The notes under the pieces: generated by a model
The model's input: only the letters and a program-made list of their open reading frames with translations
Databases searched by the model: none
Told to the model about the DNA's origin: nothing
Position numbers and translations under genes: made by a program
Shown here: positions 3,215 through 20,527 of the stretch, piece by piece
Numbering within the stretch: position 1 is the stretch's first letter
How the letters are laid out: the number at the start of each line of letters is the position of its first letter
Virus record (IMG/VR): IMGVR_UViG_3300031566_003893
Span: 1 to 23,616 of that record
Reading direction: 5' to 3' (one strand)
DNA length: 23,616 nucleotides
Source of the DNA: a virus

Positions 3215-3280
3215 AACTCTAAAAATATTTTTACCGACGATAAAACTAGATTTTATTACCAATTATTAGACATTTTGCAA

Positions 3281-3320
3281 AATAGAAAGTTTTAAAAAGG
3301 GAATAGACGTGTATATTTTA
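3281..3320 (+). promoter_or_regulatory. Promoter cassette, copy 1 of an exact 40-bp repeat
   Basis: These 40 bases recur without a mismatch at 14744-14783, and weaker similarity continues about 20 bases beyond. The block contains TAGAAAG (BRE-like), TTTTAAAA at 3290-3297 (TATA box) and GACGTGTATATTTTA before the predicted start site near 3320. Here it drives the membrane-protein gene at 3331 with a leader of about 11 bases. Identity outside the TATA box, notably GGGAATAGACGTGTAT, suggests a shared regulator or late activator site. Confidence 0.75.
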
Positions 3321-3330
3321 GGGAAACACA

Positions 3331-3606
3331 ATGAATAAAAAAGAAACACTAACACTACAACAAGCAAGAAAAAGAATGCAATTTTTTTCGCAAGTCGAGG
3401 TCTACAAACCAGTAACACTAGTAAAGAAAATCATAGGTTACTCAATGATAGGAATCGGAACAATCACACTACCACTCCCAACAGGATCCATTTTTTTAAT
3501 TATGGGTGGATGTGCTTTATTAGCAATCGATTATAAGAAATTACTTAAGACAATCAACTTTTATGCTAAGGAAACATACTACGCAGTAAGGAGGGCATTA
3601 AAATGA
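3331..3606 (+). CDS. Small membrane protein with two spans (91 aa)
   Basis: The product begins with a polar segment (MNKKETLTLQQARKRMQFFS). A hydrophobic, glycine-rich pair of segments follows at about residues 34-68 (IIGYSMIGIGTITLPL then SIFLIMGGCALLAIDY), and then a basic tail. Two spans with a PLPTG turn resemble small inner-membrane proteins found in many phages, but no specific family is recognised. It is the first gene after the duplicated promoter and overlaps the next gene by 4 bases (ATGA), so it leads the operon running to about 5551. It might act in host-membrane modification or superinfection control, which is speculation. Confidence 0.65.
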   Translation: MNKKETLTLQQARKRMQFFSQVEVYKPVTLVKKIIGYSMIGIGTITLPLPTGSIFLIMGGCALLAIDYKKLLKTINFYAKETYYAVRRALK

Positions 3607-5972: not shown

Positions 5973-6316
5973 TGAGAGAGATGACAATTACATTAAAAAT
6001 ATCAAGTTTTGATTTTACATATATTTGGAATCAGTATGTTAAAACTGGTGGAAAATTCAACGAATTTCTAATTAATTATTATATTGAAGAAATTGCAGAA
6101 AAATTCCCAGAAGCAGATATGGTTGTCCCAAAATTATTCCTTACTTCTGGGAATCTTTATGGATTATCAAATCTTATTAATCCTAAGAATTATAGAGCGC
6201 CAGATAGAATGCATTATGGTAGTTATATAGAAGATTCAAACCAAGCACAAAAATTAAGAGAAAACTTTTTTATTGCTGAAGACGAAATAAAAAATCCAAT
6301 AGAGGTTGGTGTTTAA
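5972..6316 (+). CDS. Hypothetical protein (114 aa)
   Basis: The ATG overlaps the previous TAA by one base, and a GAGGAGGG lies upstream. A second ATG three codons later is an alternative start. The product has a helical aromatic-rich N-terminal half (FDFTYIWNQYVKTGGKFNEF) and a mixed C-terminal half with YRAPDRMHYGSYIEDSNQAQ. No membrane segment or known motif is seen. Unknown function. Confidence 0.7.
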   Translation: MREMTITLKISSFDFTYIWNQYVKTGGKFNEFLINYYIEEIAEKFPEADMVVPKLFLTSGNLYGLSNLINPKNYRAPDRMHYGSYIEDSNQAQKLRENFFIAEDEIKNPIEVGV

Positions 6317-13298: not shown

Positions 13299-14748
13299 TT
13301 TAATTCTGTCTGAAAAGCAAGAAGAAATTTTAAGGGTTTTAGAAGATGATGTTCATACTGAGGTTTTTATGGGAGGAGCTGCAGGAGGGAGCAAATCCTT
13401 CACGGGATGTTTATGGCAAATTTTAAGGAGAATCAGATATCCAGGAAGTAGAGGTTATTTGGCAAGAGCAAGATTAAAAGACCTGAAGGCAAGTACTTTA
13501 TTGACATTTTTTGAAGTGTGTGGATTATTGGGTCTGAAATTAGGCACAGATTACAAATACAATGAAATGAAGGGAGTAATCAAATTCGCAAACGGAAGTG
13601 AAGAATATTTGAAGGATTTATTTTATTATCCAAGTGATCCTGAATATGTAAGTCTGGGGTCCACAGAATACACAGATGGATTTATTGATGAGATGGGGGA
13701 TATTACTGAACAGGCGTACCAAATCATAAGGTCAAGAATGAGATTTAAATTAGATCAGTTTAAGTTAATTCCAAAGATTGCAATGGGAAGCAATCCGTGT
13801 AAAACATTTATTTATAGAGATTTTTATAAGAGATGGAGAGATAATGAACTGGAACATTTCAAAGCATACATCCCAGCAAGTGTTTATGATAATCCTTTTA
13901 TTTCAGTGCACTACATCGAAAATTTAAAGAAACTGGACACAAAGAATCGTGAAAGACTTTTAAACGGAAATTGGGAGTATGATGATGATCCTACGAAAAT
14001 ATTTGATTATGACAGAATAATTGACATGTTCACAAATGAAGCAAGAAGAGGGGAAAAGTATTGTGTGGTTGATCAGGCAGGATTTGGAAGAGATAGTTGT
14101 ATGGTTTCAATTTGGGAAGGGTTATTTATTACTGAATTTCTACAATTTGATGTGGGGTTGAGTGTTGAAGAATTAGATAAGATTTTGACAGACAGACAAA
14201 TACCCAGGAGTCATTGCATAGTGGATGAGATAGGAGTAGGATTCGGACTAAAAAAAGGAATGCCAGAGATTGTTGGATTTGTGGCAAATGCTGCTCCAAT
14301 CAAAAAGAAGAAAGAAACAGAAGATGAAAAAGGAACTCACAATTATAAGAATTTGAGAAGTCAGTGCTGGTTTTTACTGGCAAATCATGTGAATGCAGGA
14401 ATGATAGGAATTTATAGAAAACTGCCAATTAAGATTAAAGATTTAATTGTGGAAGATTTAGAAGTGATGAAACAAATGGATGTTGACAAAGACACAACTC
14501 TGAGAGTAGTCTCAAAACAGGAACTAAAAGACAAAGGGGATTTAAACAGATCCACAGATGCAGGAGATGTTTTGATGATGAGAATGTATTTTGAGATTAA
14601 CCCAAACGAAGGAGCTTGGGCGTTCCCAGATTCAGTAATATCAAGCAGTGAAGAAAAATTCAAAGTTTATGGAGACTCAAATATAAGAACCATAACAAAA
14701 GACGGAAAAGAAATAAAAATGGTTGGCGACAGAATTTTAAGAGAATAG
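13285..14748 (+). CDS. terL: Large terminase subunit (TerL), ATPase-nuclease
   Basis: ATG at 13285 is preferred to the in-frame TTG at 13279. The 487-residue product has the packaging ATPase domain first: Walker A-like GGAAGGSKS at 30-38, and the Walker B-like acidic pair in TDGFIDEMGD near 133-137. An RNase H-like nuclease domain follows, with acidic residues D263 (CVVDQAG), D314 (CIVDEIG) and D425/D428 (STDAGDVLMM). TerL pumps DNA into the prohead and cuts concatemers. Length and both domains are complete. A new promoter begins immediately at its stop codon. Confidence 0.93.
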   Translation: MQVVNLILSEKQEEILRVLEDDVHTEVFMGGAAGGSKSFTGCLWQILRRIRYPGSRGYLARARLKDLKASTLLTFFEVCGLLGLKLGTDYKYNEMKGVIKFANGSEEYLKDLFYYPSDPEYVSLGSTEYTDGFIDEMGDITEQAYQIIRSRMRFKLDQFKLIPKIAMGSNPCKTFIYRDFYKRWRDNELEHFKAYIPASVYDNPFISVHYIENLKKLDTKNRERLLNGNWEYDDDPTKIFDYDRIIDMFTNEARRGEKYCVVDQAGFGRDSCMVSIWEGLFITEFLQFDVGLSVEELDKILTDRQIPRSHCIVDEIGVGFGLKKGMPEIVGFVANAAPIKKKKETEDEKGTHNYKNLRSQCWFLLANHVNAGMIGIYRKLPIKIKDLIVEDLEVMKQMDVDKDTTLRVVSKQELKDKGDLNRSTDAGDVLMMRMYFEINPNEGAWAFPDSVISSSEEKFKVYGDSNIRTITKDGKEIKMVGDRILRE

Positions 14749-14783
14749 AAAGTTTTAAAAAGGGAATAGACGTGTATATTTTA
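14744..14783 (+). promoter_or_regulatory. Promoter cassette, copy 2 of the exact 40-bp repeat
   Basis: Identical to 3281-3320 over 40 bases. TTTTAAAA at 14753-14760 is centred 26.5 bases before the A of the ATG at 14783, giving a leaderless start. The first bases of the repeat overlap the TerL stop codon. Confidence 0.75.
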
Positions 14784-14959
14784 TGGAAAACACAATAACA
14801 AAAAAAGTTAAACAACTTTCAAGAACACAGCAAGGAGTTTCTCTAACAAAAGAAGATAGAGAAATTATCGGAGTTGAAGAAAGTGGAATAGTTGAAGTTA
14901 GAAAACATAAATTAATAGAAGACGCAAAATGTGAGGATTCAAAAAATGACAGACAATAA
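14783..14959 (+). CDS. AbrB/SpoVT-like small DNA-binding protein (58 aa)
   Basis: The leaderless start follows the duplicated promoter. Residues 5-45 (TKKVKQLSRTQQGVSLTKED, then REIIGVEESGIVEVRKHKL) have the strand-loop-helix-strand rhythm of swapped-hairpin AbrB/SpoVT proteins, with the Gly-Val-Ser-Leu-Thr-Lys stretch where family members have GxTLPKE. AbrB-like proteins are widespread archaeal repressors and antitoxins. The acidic Cys-containing tail is unrelated. It could regulate the repeat-bearing promoters, including its own. The family call is moderate. Confidence 0.55.
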   Translation: MENTITKKVKQLSRTQQGVSLTKEDREIIGVEESGIVEVRKHKLIEDAKCEDSKNDRQ

Positions 14960-15416: not shown

Positions 15417-15489
15417 GCAAACGAGTAGCACCATATGGGAAGGTGCGCCCCGTCAGGGGTAAGGCGATGTTCGAATCTCGCCGTTTGCT
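15417..15489 (+). ncRNA. tRNA-like structured RNA with shortened anticodon arm
   Basis: A 7-bp acceptor-like stem GCAAACG/CGTTTGC (15417-15423 with 15482-15488) encloses three arms. The D-arm is convincing: TA, then GCACC/GGTGC (15428-15432 with 15442-15446) around ATATGGGAA, with GG in the right place. The T-arm has loop TTCGAAT (15470-15476) on a stem GCGA(T)G/CTCGC with one bulged T. The middle arm is only CCCC-GTCA-GGGG, 5 bases shorter than an anticodon arm, and two extra bases (AG) follow the acceptor. No usable anticodon can be assigned. It may be a degenerate tRNA or a viral tRNA mimic. Confidence 0.5.
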
Positions 15490-15529
15490 TGTAATGAACG
15501 GTGAACCACCCAAAGGTAATACACTAAAT

Positions 15530-15564
15530 AGATGTGGCAGTAACACGTAAGACCACATCTTTTA
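15530..15564 (+). terminator. Strong hairpin with T-run after the tRNA-like RNA
   Basis: A perfect 8-bp stem AGATGTGG/CCACATCT (15530-15537 with 15553-15560) closes a 15-base loop and is followed by TTTT. It probably ends or protects the RNA containing the tRNA-like fold. A small GGTG-AAC-CACC hairpin lies between them (15500-15510). Confidence 0.5.
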
Positions 15565-15591
15565 TAATCAAAAACAATGGAAAAAGAAAAA

Positions 15592-15684: not shown

Positions 15685-16899
15685 ATGGGAATTAATGTAT
15701 TATCCTTATTCGATGGAATTAGTTGTGGACAAGTTGCATTAGAAAGAGCAGGAATAAAAGTTGATAATTATTTCGCTTCGGAAGTTGATTTGAAAGCTAT
15801 AAAAATTACTAAAAAGAATTATCCAAATACATTACAGGTTGGAGATGTGACTAAAGTGCAATCAGAAAACCTAACTGACATTGATTTATTGATAGGAGGA
15901 AGCCCTTGTCAATCATTTTCTAATGCAGGTAAGAGAGATGGATTTGACGGAAAAAGTGGTTTGTTTTGGCAGTTCGTCAGGATATTGAAAGAAGTAAAAC
16001 CAAAGTATTTTATGTTAGAAAATGTGAAGATGAAGCAAGAATGGAGAGATGTAATAACCGAAGCATTGGGAGTAGAGCCCATAGAAATTGATTCAGCTTT
16101 AGTGTCAGCACAACAAAGAAAAAGATTATACTGGACAAACATACCAATTAAAAATATGCAAATAGAGGATAAGAAAATTTATCTAAGCGATGTATTAGGA
16201 ATCAAAGTAGATTCTAATGAAGACAGAATAATTATGACTAAATCTGATTTTGATGTAAAGGTTAGAAAATATTATATTGATAAGCTAGAACTTTGTAAAT
16301 ACCTTAGAAAATTTAAAAACAAAACAATAAAGGAAATAGCAGACCATTGCAGCATATCTATAACAAAAGCAGAACATTGGTTTAGATTAGATAGTTCTTT
16401 CGCAATCCCAGATGAAAACTCATGGTTTAAATTAAAAGAATTATTTGGAATTGATTCAGACAAATACGATAAAGAGATAACCGAATTTGAGATTAAGAGA
16501 AATAACTTTGATATGGCTAAAAGGATATATGATGTTAGAGGAAAACACCCAACTCTTACAACATTATCTGGAGGACATCAAAGAAAAACAATAAAGAATG
16601 GAGATGATTTATTCTATTTAACACCAGAGCATTCAGAAAAATTACAAACATTGCCAGAAGGATACACAGAAGGAATTACGGATAATCAGAGATTCAAGGC
16701 GATAGGTAATGGATGGACAGTTGATGTGATAGCGCACATATTGAAAGGATTAAAAGACCATCCAAGAAGTTTAACAATAGATAGACCATACTCATACAAA
16801 ATGAGAGAGGCTGTAAAGACTGGTGAAGCAATAGTAGAAAAAGGAAAACCTAAGATACTTTACAAATACGAAATTAAAAGAAAGACGCATAAGAACTAA
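15685..16899 (+). CDS. C5-cytosine DNA methyltransferase with internal HTH-like segment
   Basis: The ATG at 15685 has GAAGGAGA seven bases upstream, better than the in-frame GTG at 15670. The 404-residue enzyme is complete: motif I SLFDGISCG, catalytic loop GGSPCQSFS (C75), motif VI LENVK (112-115), motif VIII SAQQRKRLYW (141-150) and the closing QRFKAIGNGWTVDVI. Between motifs VIII and IX, about residues 195-265, an inserted helical segment (KNKTIKEIADHCSISITKAE then HWFRLDSSFAIPDE) looks like a helix-turn-helix in the target-recognition region, as in some phage C5 enzymes. It methylates cytosine C5 and probably protects viral DNA from restriction. The three 16-bp repeats just upstream may be its operator. 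Confidence 0.92.
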   Translation: MGINVLSLFDGISCGQVALERAGIKVDNYFASEVDLKAIKITKKNYPNTLQVGDVTKVQSENLTDIDLLIGGSPCQSFSNAGKRDGFDGKSGLFWQFVRILKEVKPKYFMLENVKMKQEWRDVITEALGVEPIEIDSALVSAQQRKRLYWTNIPIKNMQIEDKKIYLSDVLGIKVDSNEDRIIMTKSDFDVKVRKYYIDKLELCKYLRKFKNKTIKEIADHCSISITKAEHWFRLDSSFAIPDENSWFKLKELFGIDSDKYDKEITEFEIKRNNFDMAKRIYDVRGKHPTLTTLSGGHQRKTIKNGDDLFYLTPEHSEKLQTLPEGYTEGITDNQRFKAIGNGWTVDVIAHILKGLKDHPRSLTIDRPYSYKMREAVKTGEAIVEKGKPKILYKYEIKRKTHKN

Positions 16900-17170: not shown

Positions 17171-17194
17171 ACGGAGAAGAACTAAAATGGGAAT

Positions 17195-17312: not shown

Positions 17313-17489
17313 ATGGAAATAAAAGAATTAAAACAAATACTAAGAAAGATACCAGATGATTATTTCATTAGTCTGGAGTTCAATGACAAAAAGGAAAAAA
17401 AATTATTGGAAATAGAATGTTTGGATAATATTGAAAAAGAAGGAAAAGTTATAACTCTAAGAATTAAATTCGAGGAGGCTTATAATTAG
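17313..17489 (+). CDS. Small hypothetical protein (58 aa)
   Basis: ATG at 17313 is preferred to the in-frame TTG at 17295 because it follows the previous stop directly. The product has an N-terminal helix (MEIKELKQILRKIPDDYFIS) and a beta-hairpin (KLLEIECLDNIEKEGKVITL). The fold resembles small beta-alpha-beta proteins, but no family is recognised. Its last codons form the 5' strand of the structured RNA at 17482. Confidence 0.55.
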   Translation: MEIKELKQILRKIPDDYFISLEFNDKKEKKLLEIECLDNIEKEGKVITLRIKFEEAYN

Positions 17490-17553
17490 GAGGGGTAGTA
17501 CCGTAAGGCTACCGCCCTGCTCTTACTTGCAGGATGGTTAACCTCCTAATTAT
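17482..17553 (+). ncRNA. Three-way-junction structured RNA candidate
   Basis: A perfect 12-bp closing helix (17482-17493 with 17542-17553, strands ATAATTAGGAGG and CCTCCTAATTAT) encloses two hairpins. The first is GGTAG/CTACC (17494-17498 with 17509-17513), continued after a TA bulge by CC-GTAA-GG with a GNRA tetraloop. The second is CCTGC/GCAGG (17516-17520 with 17529-17533) with an 8-base loop TCTTACTT. An 8-base ATGGTTAA joins back to the closing helix. GC-rich helices in an AT-rich genome and a GNRA cap argue for a folded RNA. It is not a tRNA (no T-arm). It could be a regulatory RNA, riboswitch or packaging-type RNA. Confidence 0.6.
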
Positions 17554-17571
17554 TCGCACTTGAACTAAAAT

Positions 17572-17721
17572 ATGAAATGCCCATTTTGTAAACACATAAT
17601 AAGAAGAAAGGATGAAATTTGTAGCAAATGTGGTAAATTATATCCAACATTAAGAGTTACAAAAATTATATTTAAATGTAAAGATTGCTCGAGTTCGTAT
17701 AAAAATAACAATGGAAAATAA
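17572..17721 (+). CDS. Zinc-ribbon protein (49 aa)
   Basis: The 49-residue product contains three Cys pairs: CPFC at residues 3-6, CSKC at 17-20 and CKDC near 36-39, with a basic linker (KHIIRRKDEI). The first two pairs make a zinc ribbon of the kind common in archaeal transcription and translation proteins. It overlaps the winged-helix gene by 11 bases and sits right after the structured RNA, so it may form a regulatory pair with the former or bind the latter. Confidence 0.6.
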   Translation: MKCPFCKHIIRRKDEICSKCGKLYPTLRVTKIIFKCKDCSSSYKNNNGK

Positions 17722-17971
17722 AATAAAAAATTTATTAATGACAAAAAAGTTACCAGATATATTTATGGAAATCTATAGATATAAGCATAAATCTATAAGA
17801 GAAATGTCTAGAAAAATTAAATATTCAGAATCAAATATATATCCAGTAATTTTAAAGTTGTTAGAAATTGGATTAATTAAAAAAGAAAAACTTGGGAGAA
17901 GAATTATTATACATTATACAGAAAAGGGATTGATATTATATAATTTACTTATTAAAATAAAAAATATTTAG
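17711..17971 (+). CDS. Winged-helix transcription regulator (86 aa)
   Basis: The product has the archaeal winged-helix layout: helix 1 (LPDIFMEIYRYKHKSIREMS), recognition helix (YSESNIYPVILKLLEIGLIK), wing (KEKLGRRIIIHYTEKG) and a final hydrophobic helix. This matches MarR/PadR-type domains. Just downstream, two identical 12-bp direct repeats (17983-18014) precede the head operon, so it is a good candidate for controlling portal and late genes. Confidence 0.7.
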   Translation: MENKIKNLLMTKKLPDIFMEIYRYKHKSIREMSRKIKYSESNIYPVILKLLEIGLIKKEKLGRRIIIHYTEKGLILYNLLIKIKNI

Positions 17972-18076: not shown

Positions 18077-20431
18077 ATGGAACGAAAATCGGCAAGTATA
18101 TTCTCAAATTGCCCTTGGGAATCAGGAAGTCAGTCAGTTTTACAGCCACTAGGAAAACGACCAAGTGGACCATACAACCAAGCAAACACAATTCAAAAAC
18201 AAGAAGGAACAAGTGTTGTGACGGCATTTGAAGAAACTAGAGACGGACTTCCAAAAGCATATATTCCAAACTTTTTTTATAGGGCTCCATTTGGATACCC
18301 AAGATATAAAGATTTAAATTATTTTAGACAACTTGCTACAAGTATTTATGTTGATATGTGTACTACTGCAATCATAGACGAAGTGTGTTCAGTTGAGTGG
18401 GAAATAGTGGCAGAGGATAGAGCAGGTAACGAAATACCAGGAAAAGAAAAAGATATTGAACGTATCCAGGAATTTTTTTATAACCCAAACACAAACAAAG
18501 AGAGTTGGGAAACAATTATAAGAATGATGTTGCCAGACTTATTGGAAATTAACTCGGGAATTATTACTAAAGTTTTTAACATTTTTGGAGAAATGGTTGA
18601 AATTTATTCTAGAGATGGAATGGCGTTCACAAAAAATCCTGATCCTTATGGAACTTATACAAGTAGAGCAGATTTAATTTTAATGAAAAATATTCTAGGG
18701 GAAGGAGAAACTCAAACTCAACAAATGGACTACCCTGCTATTCAAGCAGAAATGACTGCTACTGACGCACATGAAGAAGGGGCTTATTTTCAATATGGAT
18801 TTAATACAGGAGCAAGACCAATACCATTTGGAAGGCGTGAAATAGTTTGGTTCGAGAAAAAAGTAAGAACAGATAATCTATACGGACGTTCTAGTATGGA
18901 AATTCTAGCAAAAACCGTTCAGACTTTAATTTACGCAGTAGAGAGTCAATTGGAATATTTTAATGACAACTCAATCCCTCCAGGAGTCTTGGGATTAGAA
19001 GGAATGACAAGTGCAGATATGAAAGCATTTGGACAACAATGGGTGCAACAGCAAAAGGTTCAAGATGAATTAGGAAACTGGAAACACACAAACCATAAAT
19101 TACCAATGGTTAACACGATGCCGAAGTTCGAGAGATTAGGATTCACAAACCAAGAACTCGAACTAATCGAATCACAAAAGTGGTGGTCAAAATTAGTCTG
19201 GGGAGCATTCGGAATCACAGCAACAGAACTGGGGTTTACAGAAGACTCAAGCGGTGCAGCAAACCAAATCGTACAAACAAGCGTAGCAAAGAAAAGGATT
19301 ATTTATCCACTATTAAGATTAATCGAATATCATGTCAACACAGAAATAATCCCGGAGTTTGGTGTTGAGGGTGTACGTTACAAATACAAAATTTTCGATA
19401 TTGACGAAGAAACAAAGAAATGGGGATTGTATAGAATGCAGACCGAAGCAGACCTAAAGACCATCAACGAAGTTCGTAATGCAGAAGGACTAGACGATGT
19501 AGAATGGGGAGATAAGAACGCAGGAGAGAGAAGCCCAAATCAAGGAACAAACATAAATGTAGGAGACCCAAGACAGCAAGACTCAGACAAGATTAATAGA
19601 GATAGCCAAAACACTCGTGATAAAATGTCAGGAAAGCCGGCAAAGGGAGACAAGCCAGATGATATTAAGAAAGCAATTACAACAGATAGTCCAAATACAC
19701 TAGAACTAGGAGAAGAGATAGGACCAGAAGAAAAGAAACTTAAAAAACAAATTACAGATTTATTAAAAAGTAACAAAGAAAAGGTGTTCGATTTATTAGA
19801 CTCCCAAGGAAAAGACGAACCACTAATGCAGATTAAGAGTATTGATGATTTGCCAGTATTAATTAAGAAGATATTTCAAATATTCTCATTTAAGGGAATT
19901 GTTGATGAGGTTATAGGAGAAAAGTTTAATTCTGGATGGGATAAATCAGAAAAACAAATTAATAAAAATATTCCAATGAATTACAAAGCTTTAGAATTTT
20001 TACAAAATCATACATTCGAAAATGTAAAAGGAATGACAGAAGAAATAGCAAATGATTTGAAAGCAGAACTAAGTAGAGGAATAATAAACGGAGAAAGCAT
20101 CCCAAAACTAAAAGATAGAGTTTCTAAAGTTTTTAATGTTGGAGAAGTTAGAGCAGAAGTTATAGCTATAACAGAGGTCGGCAGGGCAGAAAATCAAGGA
20201 AAGTTACTAGCAATGAAGGGTTCTGGATTGGATATGAAAAAGCAATGGCTCTCAGCACATGATGAACGAACAAGTGATTTATGCAAGCATTTGGATGGAC
20301 AAGTAGTAGGATTAGATGAAGATTTTCATTATAAGGATTGGTCTGGACAAGCTCCCCCTTCACATCCCCGTTGCAGGTCAGTTTTACTATTCTTAGATAA
20401 GGAAGATGAAGATAGTATCAGTTCAGGATAA
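18077..20431 (+). CDS. Portal protein fused to MuF-like minor head protein
   Basis: The 784-residue protein contains a phage portal domain over about residues 60-520. Its segments include NYFRQLATSIYVDMCTTAII, an IVWFEKKVRTDNLYGRSSME strand-helix, and TATELGFTEDSSGAANQIVQ. A disordered Asp/Lys/Gly-rich linker follows (about 470-560). The C-terminal 200 residues are MuF/gpF-like: AITEVGRAENQGKLLAMKGS, then WLSAHDERTSDLCKHLDGQV and the ending PPSHPRCRSVLLFLD. Portal forms the DNA entry ring; MuF is a head-associated protein near it. In most phages they are separate genes, so the fusion is noteworthy. Complete length; next to a tRNA gene. Confidence 0.88.
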   Translation: MERKSASIFSNCPWESGSQSVLQPLGKRPSGPYNQANTIQKQEGTSVVTAFEETRDGLPKAYIPNFFYRAPFGYPRYKDLNYFRQLATSIYVDMCTTAIIDEVCSVEWEIVAEDRAGNEIPGKEKDIERIQEFFYNPNTNKESWETIIRMMLPDLLEINSGIITKVFNIFGEMVEIYSRDGMAFTKNPDPYGTYTSRADLILMKNILGEGETQTQQMDYPAIQAEMTATDAHEEGAYFQYGFNTGARPIPFGRREIVWFEKKVRTDNLYGRSSMEILAKTVQTLIYAVESQLEYFNDNSIPPGVLGLEGMTSADMKAFGQQWVQQQKVQDELGNWKHTNHKLPMVNTMPKFERLGFTNQELELIESQKWWSKLVWGAFGITATELGFTEDSSGAANQIVQTSVAKKRIIYPLLRLIEYHVNTEIIPEFGVEGVRYKYKIFDIDEETKKWGLYRMQTEADLKTINEVRNAEGLDDVEWGDKNAGERSPNQGTNINVGDPRQQDSDKINRDSQNTRDKMSGKPAKGDKPDDIKKAITTDSPNTLELGEEIGPEEKKLKKQITDLLKSNKEKVFDLLDSQGKDEPLMQIKSIDDLPVLIKKIFQIFSFKGIVDEVIGEKFNSGWDKSEKQINKNIPMNYKALEFLQNHTFENVKGMTEEIANDLKAELSRGIINGESIPKLKDRVSKVFNVGEVRAEVIAITEVGRAENQGKLLAMKGSGLDMKKQWLSAHDERTSDLCKHLDGQVVGLDEDFHYKDWSGQAPPSHPRCRSVLLFLDKEDEDSISSG

Positions 20432-20456: not shown

Positions 20457-20527
20457 GCCCCTATGGTATAACGATAACATCACTCCCTTGTAAGGAGTGG
20501 CTCCCGGTTTGACTCCGGGTAGGTGCT
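20457..20527 (+). tRNA. tRNA-Thr (anticodon UGU)
   Basis: Acceptor GCCCCTA/TAGGTGC (20457-20463 with 20520-20526) has one C:T mismatch at the third pair. The anticodon arm ACTCC/GGAGT (20482-20486 with 20494-20498) holds the loop CTTGTAA with anticodon TGT at 20489-20491. The T-arm CCCGG/CCGGG (20503-20507 with 20515-20519) has loop TTTGACT, in which the usual C56 is T. The D-arm (GTATAACGATAAC) is weak, 2-4 pairs. No CCA is encoded. ACA codons are common in these genes, so it may supplement host translation. The oddities suggest a viral, partly degenerate tRNA. Confidence 0.75.

Follow-up and report, generated by a model that had tools for sequence, protein, structure and literature searches.

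What would a compact three-helix RNA do between the short accessory genes of a tailed virus, and does it belong to any RNA family that can be found elsewhere? The question is raised by the stretch 17482-17553 of the window, i.e. of the whole 23.6-kb virus record analysed here (23,616 nucleotides, 33% GC). Among the head and packaging proteins encoded in the window are a large terminase subunit (TerL, Terminase_3), a portal carrying a fused Mu F-like domain and a major capsid protein of the SU10 type. Judged from its gene content, the window probably represents a tailed virus whose host is a DPANN archaeon. We propose this host because contigs bearing relatives of the capsid protein were binned as Nanoarchaeota, Woesearchaeota and one further archaeon (with a single WOR-3 bacterial bin), because an archaeal-looking TATA stretch, CTTTATAAAATTA, precedes the portal genes of the relatives, and because Woesearchaeal genomes contain weak relatives of a winged-helix protein that is encoded beside the element. 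Our search of the literature on RNAs of DPANN-archaeal viruses found almost nothing.

Folding of the three-way junction

The original prediction placed three nested helices within 72 bases of the plus strand, and folding returned them at the same coordinates with a minimum free energy (MFE) of -31.4 kcal/mol. P1 consists of 12 perfect pairs (ATAATTAGGAGG/CCTCCTAATTAT, 17482-17493/17542-17553) and encloses the P2 hairpin (17494-17513), the P3 hairpin (17516-17533) and an 8-nt junction strand, AUGGUUAA (17534-17541). P2 had been described with a 2-base bulge and a GTAA tetraloop; this form is predicted at -31.0 kcal/mol, and a six-pair form with an 8-base loop is nearly equal to it (-31.4 kcal/mol). 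The statement that the helices are GC-rich holds for the inner hairpins only, while P1 has 4 GC positions among the 12 of its 5′ arm.

The core 72-mer has a z-score of -4.5 and is matched by none of 200 shuffles; 10 of 20,000 local dinucleotide shuffles reach -31.4. When the window was scanned on both strands in steps of three bases, 17482-17553 was its most stable 72-mer. As a control for the scan, 40 versions of the whole window were made by dinucleotide shuffling within 150-base blocks; their best 72-mers had a mean of -23.7 (sd 1.9) and a minimum of -29.1, and none of the 40 shuffled windows reached the core element. Therefore, base composition and chance do not account for the structure. 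Taken by itself, the 12-bp stem would be less convincing, as coding sequence at 6103 contains an 11-bp inverted repeat that is unrelated to it.

The pairing runs beyond the extent that was first proposed. Folding with the flanks predicts, outward from the 12 pairs, a 2 × 2 loop, the pairs GC/GC (17478-17479/17556-17557), a small internal loop and the helix UCGAG/CUUGA (17470-17474/17559-17563), which gives an element of approximately 17470-17563. The 106-nt stretch 17470-17575 has an MFE of -39.3 and a z-score of -4.25, and again none of 200 shuffles matches it. The 8-base loops of P2 (ACCGUAAG, 17500-17507) and P3 (UCUUACUU, 17521-17528) hold GUAAG and CUUAC, respectively, and are complementary over these 5 bp, which is expected by chance in 1.7-1.9% of loop pairs. 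A loop-loop (“kissing”) contact between P2 and P3 is thus possible from the sequence.

The two strands fold with nearly equal energies (-31.4 and -29.7). Such folding of both strands, within a variable cassette region between the terminase and portal genes, would suit a Y-shaped inverted repeat that acts at the DNA level when the island is recombined, inserted or replicated. However, the GNRA loop, together with a single G-U pair, fits an RNA read from one strand, the flanking genes also favour the plus strand, and neither a second copy in the window or its relatives nor a flanking duplication was found, so that we consider a DNA element highly improbable.

Search for relatives of the element

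In agreement with the original prediction, the element corresponds neither to an Rfam family nor to a tRNA: Rfam 15 gave nothing at 17482-17553 up to an E value of 10, the sole ARAGORN call in the window was a tRNA-Thr at 20457, and no T-arm is present in 17482-17553. A covariance model of the element, applied to 1.05 Mb of sequence (the window and its relatives), matched the window itself and nothing else; it found no match in the later loci (~1.3 Mb of related viral loci overall) or in 378 Woesearchaeal genomes. BLAST detected no copy of the element in the whole records of nine relatives and no similarity of the region to named phages, and a pattern combining both loops with the junction had no match in IMG/VR. 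The exact P2 pattern was found in 76 IMG/VR contigs, a number not above chance by our estimate; these contigs share essentially the P2 hairpin alone, some with U-runs after it, their best E value with the covariance model is 0.19, and we did not accept them as relatives. Within the reach of these searches, whose tools may conceal records almost identical to the window, the element is an orphan in Rfam, IMG/VR, the related viral loci and the Woesearchaeal genomes, and its fold is real, unusual and so far unique.

Two strong Y-shaped folds of the L174 locus (1256-1314 and 3380-3446) lie at gene ends, each after TCGTTTAATA and with a stop codon inside; on the minus strand, both have the hairpin tip GCGUAGC. 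They were rejected as relatives, being similar in shape and different in sequence, with a host that is probably of another kind. A strong fold of L163 was also discarded, as it is located inside a coding gene.

The element sits between the terminase and portal genes, i.e. in an accessory island, as had been proposed. Among thirty portal relatives, this interval is variable in length (~90 bp in L078, ~630 bp in L079, other values in the rest) as well as in gene content. In relatives with 65-90% identical portals, the terminase-portal gap is short or different and the element is missing, which argues against the packaging-RNA role that the original prediction had allowed. Such a role would be suggested by the position before the portal gene and by nothing else. 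The phi29 pRNA is likewise a structured RNA encoded near head genes, but it differs from the element in size and layout and is not matched by it; there is no Rfam match, the terminase is a standard TerL with an ordinary portal, and relatives with the same head module do without the element. We regard a phi29-like packaging RNA as hardly credible.

The orphan status in all searches would also be expected if the structure had arisen by chance or were decaying within a hypervariable island, as might the remnant of an inserted RNA gene. The 11-bp repeat at 6103 points in the same direction, as does a weak alignment to the 3′ end of Woesearchaeal 16S rRNA. On the latter view, the element would be a degenerate 16S rRNA 3′ end, with which it has a colinear AGG.GGG...ACCUCCU in common. 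We rejected this origin as unproven: 1.1% of shuffles reach the alignment, which is not significant for a region picked after CCUCC had been seen. The whole-window shuffles are never as stable as the element and its outer helix lengthens the fold; chance or decay is, in our opinion, a very unlikely explanation.

Several further features of this virus group were recorded in the course of the comparison. The portal gene is interrupted at fixed sites by insertions of up to ~1 kb, which are inteins or introns; they correspond to window position 19237/19238 in L098, L099, L102, L100 and L103 and lie near 19512-19700 in L093 and L094, and the terminases of L095, L098 and L101 have intein-like insertions. 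The tRNA-Thr of the window (20457-20527) follows the portal gene and is 93% identical to the tRNA-Thr of L101 (3845-3917), located before the portal gene as part of a tRNA array that also has tRNA-Met and tRNA-Pro; tRNA genes move between islands. A 75-nt stretch with AAAGTTTTAAAAAGGGAATAGACGTGTATATTTTA, which looks like a repeated archaeal promoter, precedes ORFs at 3268-3342 and 14731-14805 of the window (81% identity between the copies), and is also present in L080 and partly in L081. The start of the contig (1-144) is made up of a 36-bp tandem repeat, CGCAGACGGAACATTCTCTGCTGATAGCCATCTTCA, encoding a repeated peptide.

Position between two short genes and possible function

The genes around the element form one tightly packed run on the plus strand. 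A 58-aa ORF to which no family could be assigned (17313-17489) ends within the element: its TAG stop (17487-17489) and, in part, its last two sense codons belong to the 5′ arm of P1, which confirms the earlier remark that a small gene ends inside the 5′ strand. Downstream, a 49-aa zinc-ribbon-like ORF (17572-17721, plus strand; Zn_ribbon_3 with an E value of 2.5e-5, below the cut-off) begins with its ATG (17572) after a gap of 8 nt from the extended stem, and its start context, GAACTAAAAT, is found again at two sites reading GAACTAAAATGG, one near 16885 and the other near 17171. Its end is overlapped by an 86-aa winged-helix ORF of the TrmB/HVO_A0114-like type (17711-17971, plus strand). No relatives of the flanking 58-aa, 89-aa, 49-aa and 86-aa proteins were found in IMG/VR, and the reality of the 58-aa and 49-aa ORFs is argued from the layout alone because neither has relatives.

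The four most GC-rich intergenic spots of the window include the tRNA-Thr, a tRNA-like RNA and the three-way-junction element. The GC-IGR approach to finding structured RNAs relies on intergenic stretches that are rich in GC within an AT-rich genome (PMC6429828).

We tentatively read the element as an intercistronic RNA module that acts in cis within a polycistronic viral mRNA. Of the roles first proposed, a cis effect on translation or stability stays the best guess, while the packaging RNA is not supported. The fold would separate two expression segments. It would cap the upstream one by protecting or defining the 3′ end of its message and would leave the downstream gene with a very short unstructured leader, ACUAAAAU, which might arise either as is or through cleavage at the stem base. 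On reaching the TAG stop, which falls in the 5′ arm, a terminating ribosome would briefly open P1, and the fold may thereby be coupled to translation of the upstream gene.

The intercistronic module is consistent with a fold well beyond chance that fills the gap between two ORFs, with both stem ends at gene boundaries, and that is high in GC among the intergenic spots of the window, which is the GC-IGR criterion. The stem is followed by UCGCACUUGAACUAAAAU and by no U-run, as distinct from a bacterial-type intrinsic terminator. Moreover, the related viruses have non-homologous stem-closed modules in a similar place, 5-12 nt before ORF starts. Scored on the coding strand in intergenic regions, the distance from the end of the closed stem to the start of the ORF is 5 nt in L203, 8 in L188, 9 in L191 and L207, 10 in L089 and 12 in L195, and several modules (L207, L198, L202 and L203) hold two hairpins within the closed stem. 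Some of these modules are, like the element, three-way junctions. This leader parallel was spotted after the fact, and the modules are unrelated to the element in sequence.

The nearest comparison is given by the RATGTGGG...CCCACAT(T) modules at the 3′ end of tRNA-like RNAs (for example, in L207, L198, L202 and L203), with a closing stem of 8-10 bp and one or two hairpins. They share with the element the kind of virus and a stem that ends shortly before an ORF start; the element differs by the lack of sequence similarity, its own 12-bp stem, no adjoining tRNA-like domain and no TTTTATAATC after it. All three marks of the tRNA-like family (the acceptor with T-arm, the GACACYSGG-AAAGA hairpin and the RATGTGGG/CCCACAT module) are missing from the element. 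Other points weigh against the intercistronic module: with no homologue there is no sign of selection on the pairing, the two adjoining ORFs are themselves proposed from layout, and a simple hairpin would be enough for mRNA protection, so that a three-way junction with a possible loop contact suggests something more specific.

The main rival is a free small RNA gene of ~72-94 nt, which would have its own archaeal promoter or be cut from the operon RNA and would act in trans on host or viral targets. Its compact multi-helix fold with a possible loop-loop pairing, a local GC as high as in the tRNA genes of the window and the presence of further structured RNAs in the same island are in accordance with this idea. 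A TATA-like stretch, GGAAAAGTTATAA (17444-17456, plus strand), lies ~26 nt upstream of the core stem and is a weak candidate promoter for a separate transcript, having been recognised by eye against an AT-rich background. Given this weak call, the lack of homologues and the embedding of the element in an operon with a gene end inside its stem, a free small RNA is possible, although we doubt it.

The element lies immediately before an ORF of the nucleic-acid-binding type and a regulator ORF, which raises the possibility of a ligand- or protein-responsive switch for the zinc-ribbon and winged-helix genes, for example, through autoregulation in which one of the two proteins binds the RNA. The purine riboswitch is a three-way junction in which two hairpins have kissing loops, and the element is similar to it in size, in its three helices and in its two 8-nt loops that possibly pair, as in compact riboswitches. 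However, the junction strands of the element are 0, 2 and 8 nt, in contrast to the long conserved J1/2 and J2/3 of the purine riboswitch; the family model of the latter is unmatched, as is the rest of Rfam, and an expression platform was not seen. No alternative structure masking the start codon is apparent, and no homologue of the gene pair, which could show co-occurrence, was found in IMG/VR. A switch of this kind seems rather unlikely.

A probable new RNA family with a tRNA-like part in the same island

Approximately 2 kb upstream of the three-way junction, the window carries a tRNA-like RNA (15417-15570). Its tRNA-like domain (15417-15489) has an acceptor stem GCAAACG/CGTTTGC, a T-loop TTCGAAT and a middle that is not tRNA, and is followed by GATGTGG...CCACATCTTTTATAATC up to 15570. 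This layout is common to L081 (4650-5000), L088 (1900-2250), L089 (12330-12830) and L101 (3580-3745); with L187-L207, to which two IMG/VR motif scans contributed, the family comprises ~17 distinct viral loci. The window copy is divergent, the sequence of the GACAC hairpin being missing and the T-stem bulged, and it is a probable member of the family.

The tRNA-like part is readable in 14 sequences. In these, the acceptor stem is paired in all 98 of 98 cells, and 5 of its 7 positions show two-sided changes. As the acceptor halves were found by complementarity, perfect pairing is partly built in, and it is the two-sided changes that count as evidence. The middle region, which takes the place of the D and anticodon arms, varies from 29 to 72 nt and contains no normal anticodon arm. 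After the tRNA-like part, there is a conserved hairpin, GACAC(C/T)(C/G)GG-AAAGA, and then a RATGTGGG...CCCACATTTTATAATC module that is highly variable inside. Some loci (L194, L203) have tandem repeats of the family. In L187 (12740-12940), a small ORF lies between the 5′ strand of the module, AATGTGGG, and a later CCCACATTTTATAATC, which appears as a cassette-like insertion. A start context, T(T/C)ATA(A/C)TCATGG, precedes many unrelated ORFs and is also seen right after RNA modules (for example, at L089 12442, L188 651 and L195 67); it is maybe a translation start signal of the virus group.

Rfam gave no above-threshold match for any of the tRNA-like loci tested, and ARAGORN called no tRNA at those tested save the least derived one, L089, as an intron-bearing tRNA-Ser. 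By eye, L089 keeps a D-arm-like stretch resembling tRNA, which suggests that the family descended from a real tRNA. The family seems to be viral because no copy of it turned up when 378 Woesearchaeal genomes were searched by pattern. This viral RNA family, for which the covariation speaks, is apparently undescribed so far; it is a discovery separate from the three-way junction and better supported.

One can imagine that the element comes from a class of fast-evolving, lineage-specific structured modules that separate and control short accessory genes in viruses of DPANN archaea, together with or beside the tRNA-like family, which by mimicking tRNA would draw the tRNA-processing enzymes of the host to the transcript and have it cut; we think this broader scheme quite unlikely. 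If the fold works in mRNA, it would make a compact three-way junction available to probe, and the tRNA-like family bears on the question of why a tRNA mimic unable to decode is retained in a virus.
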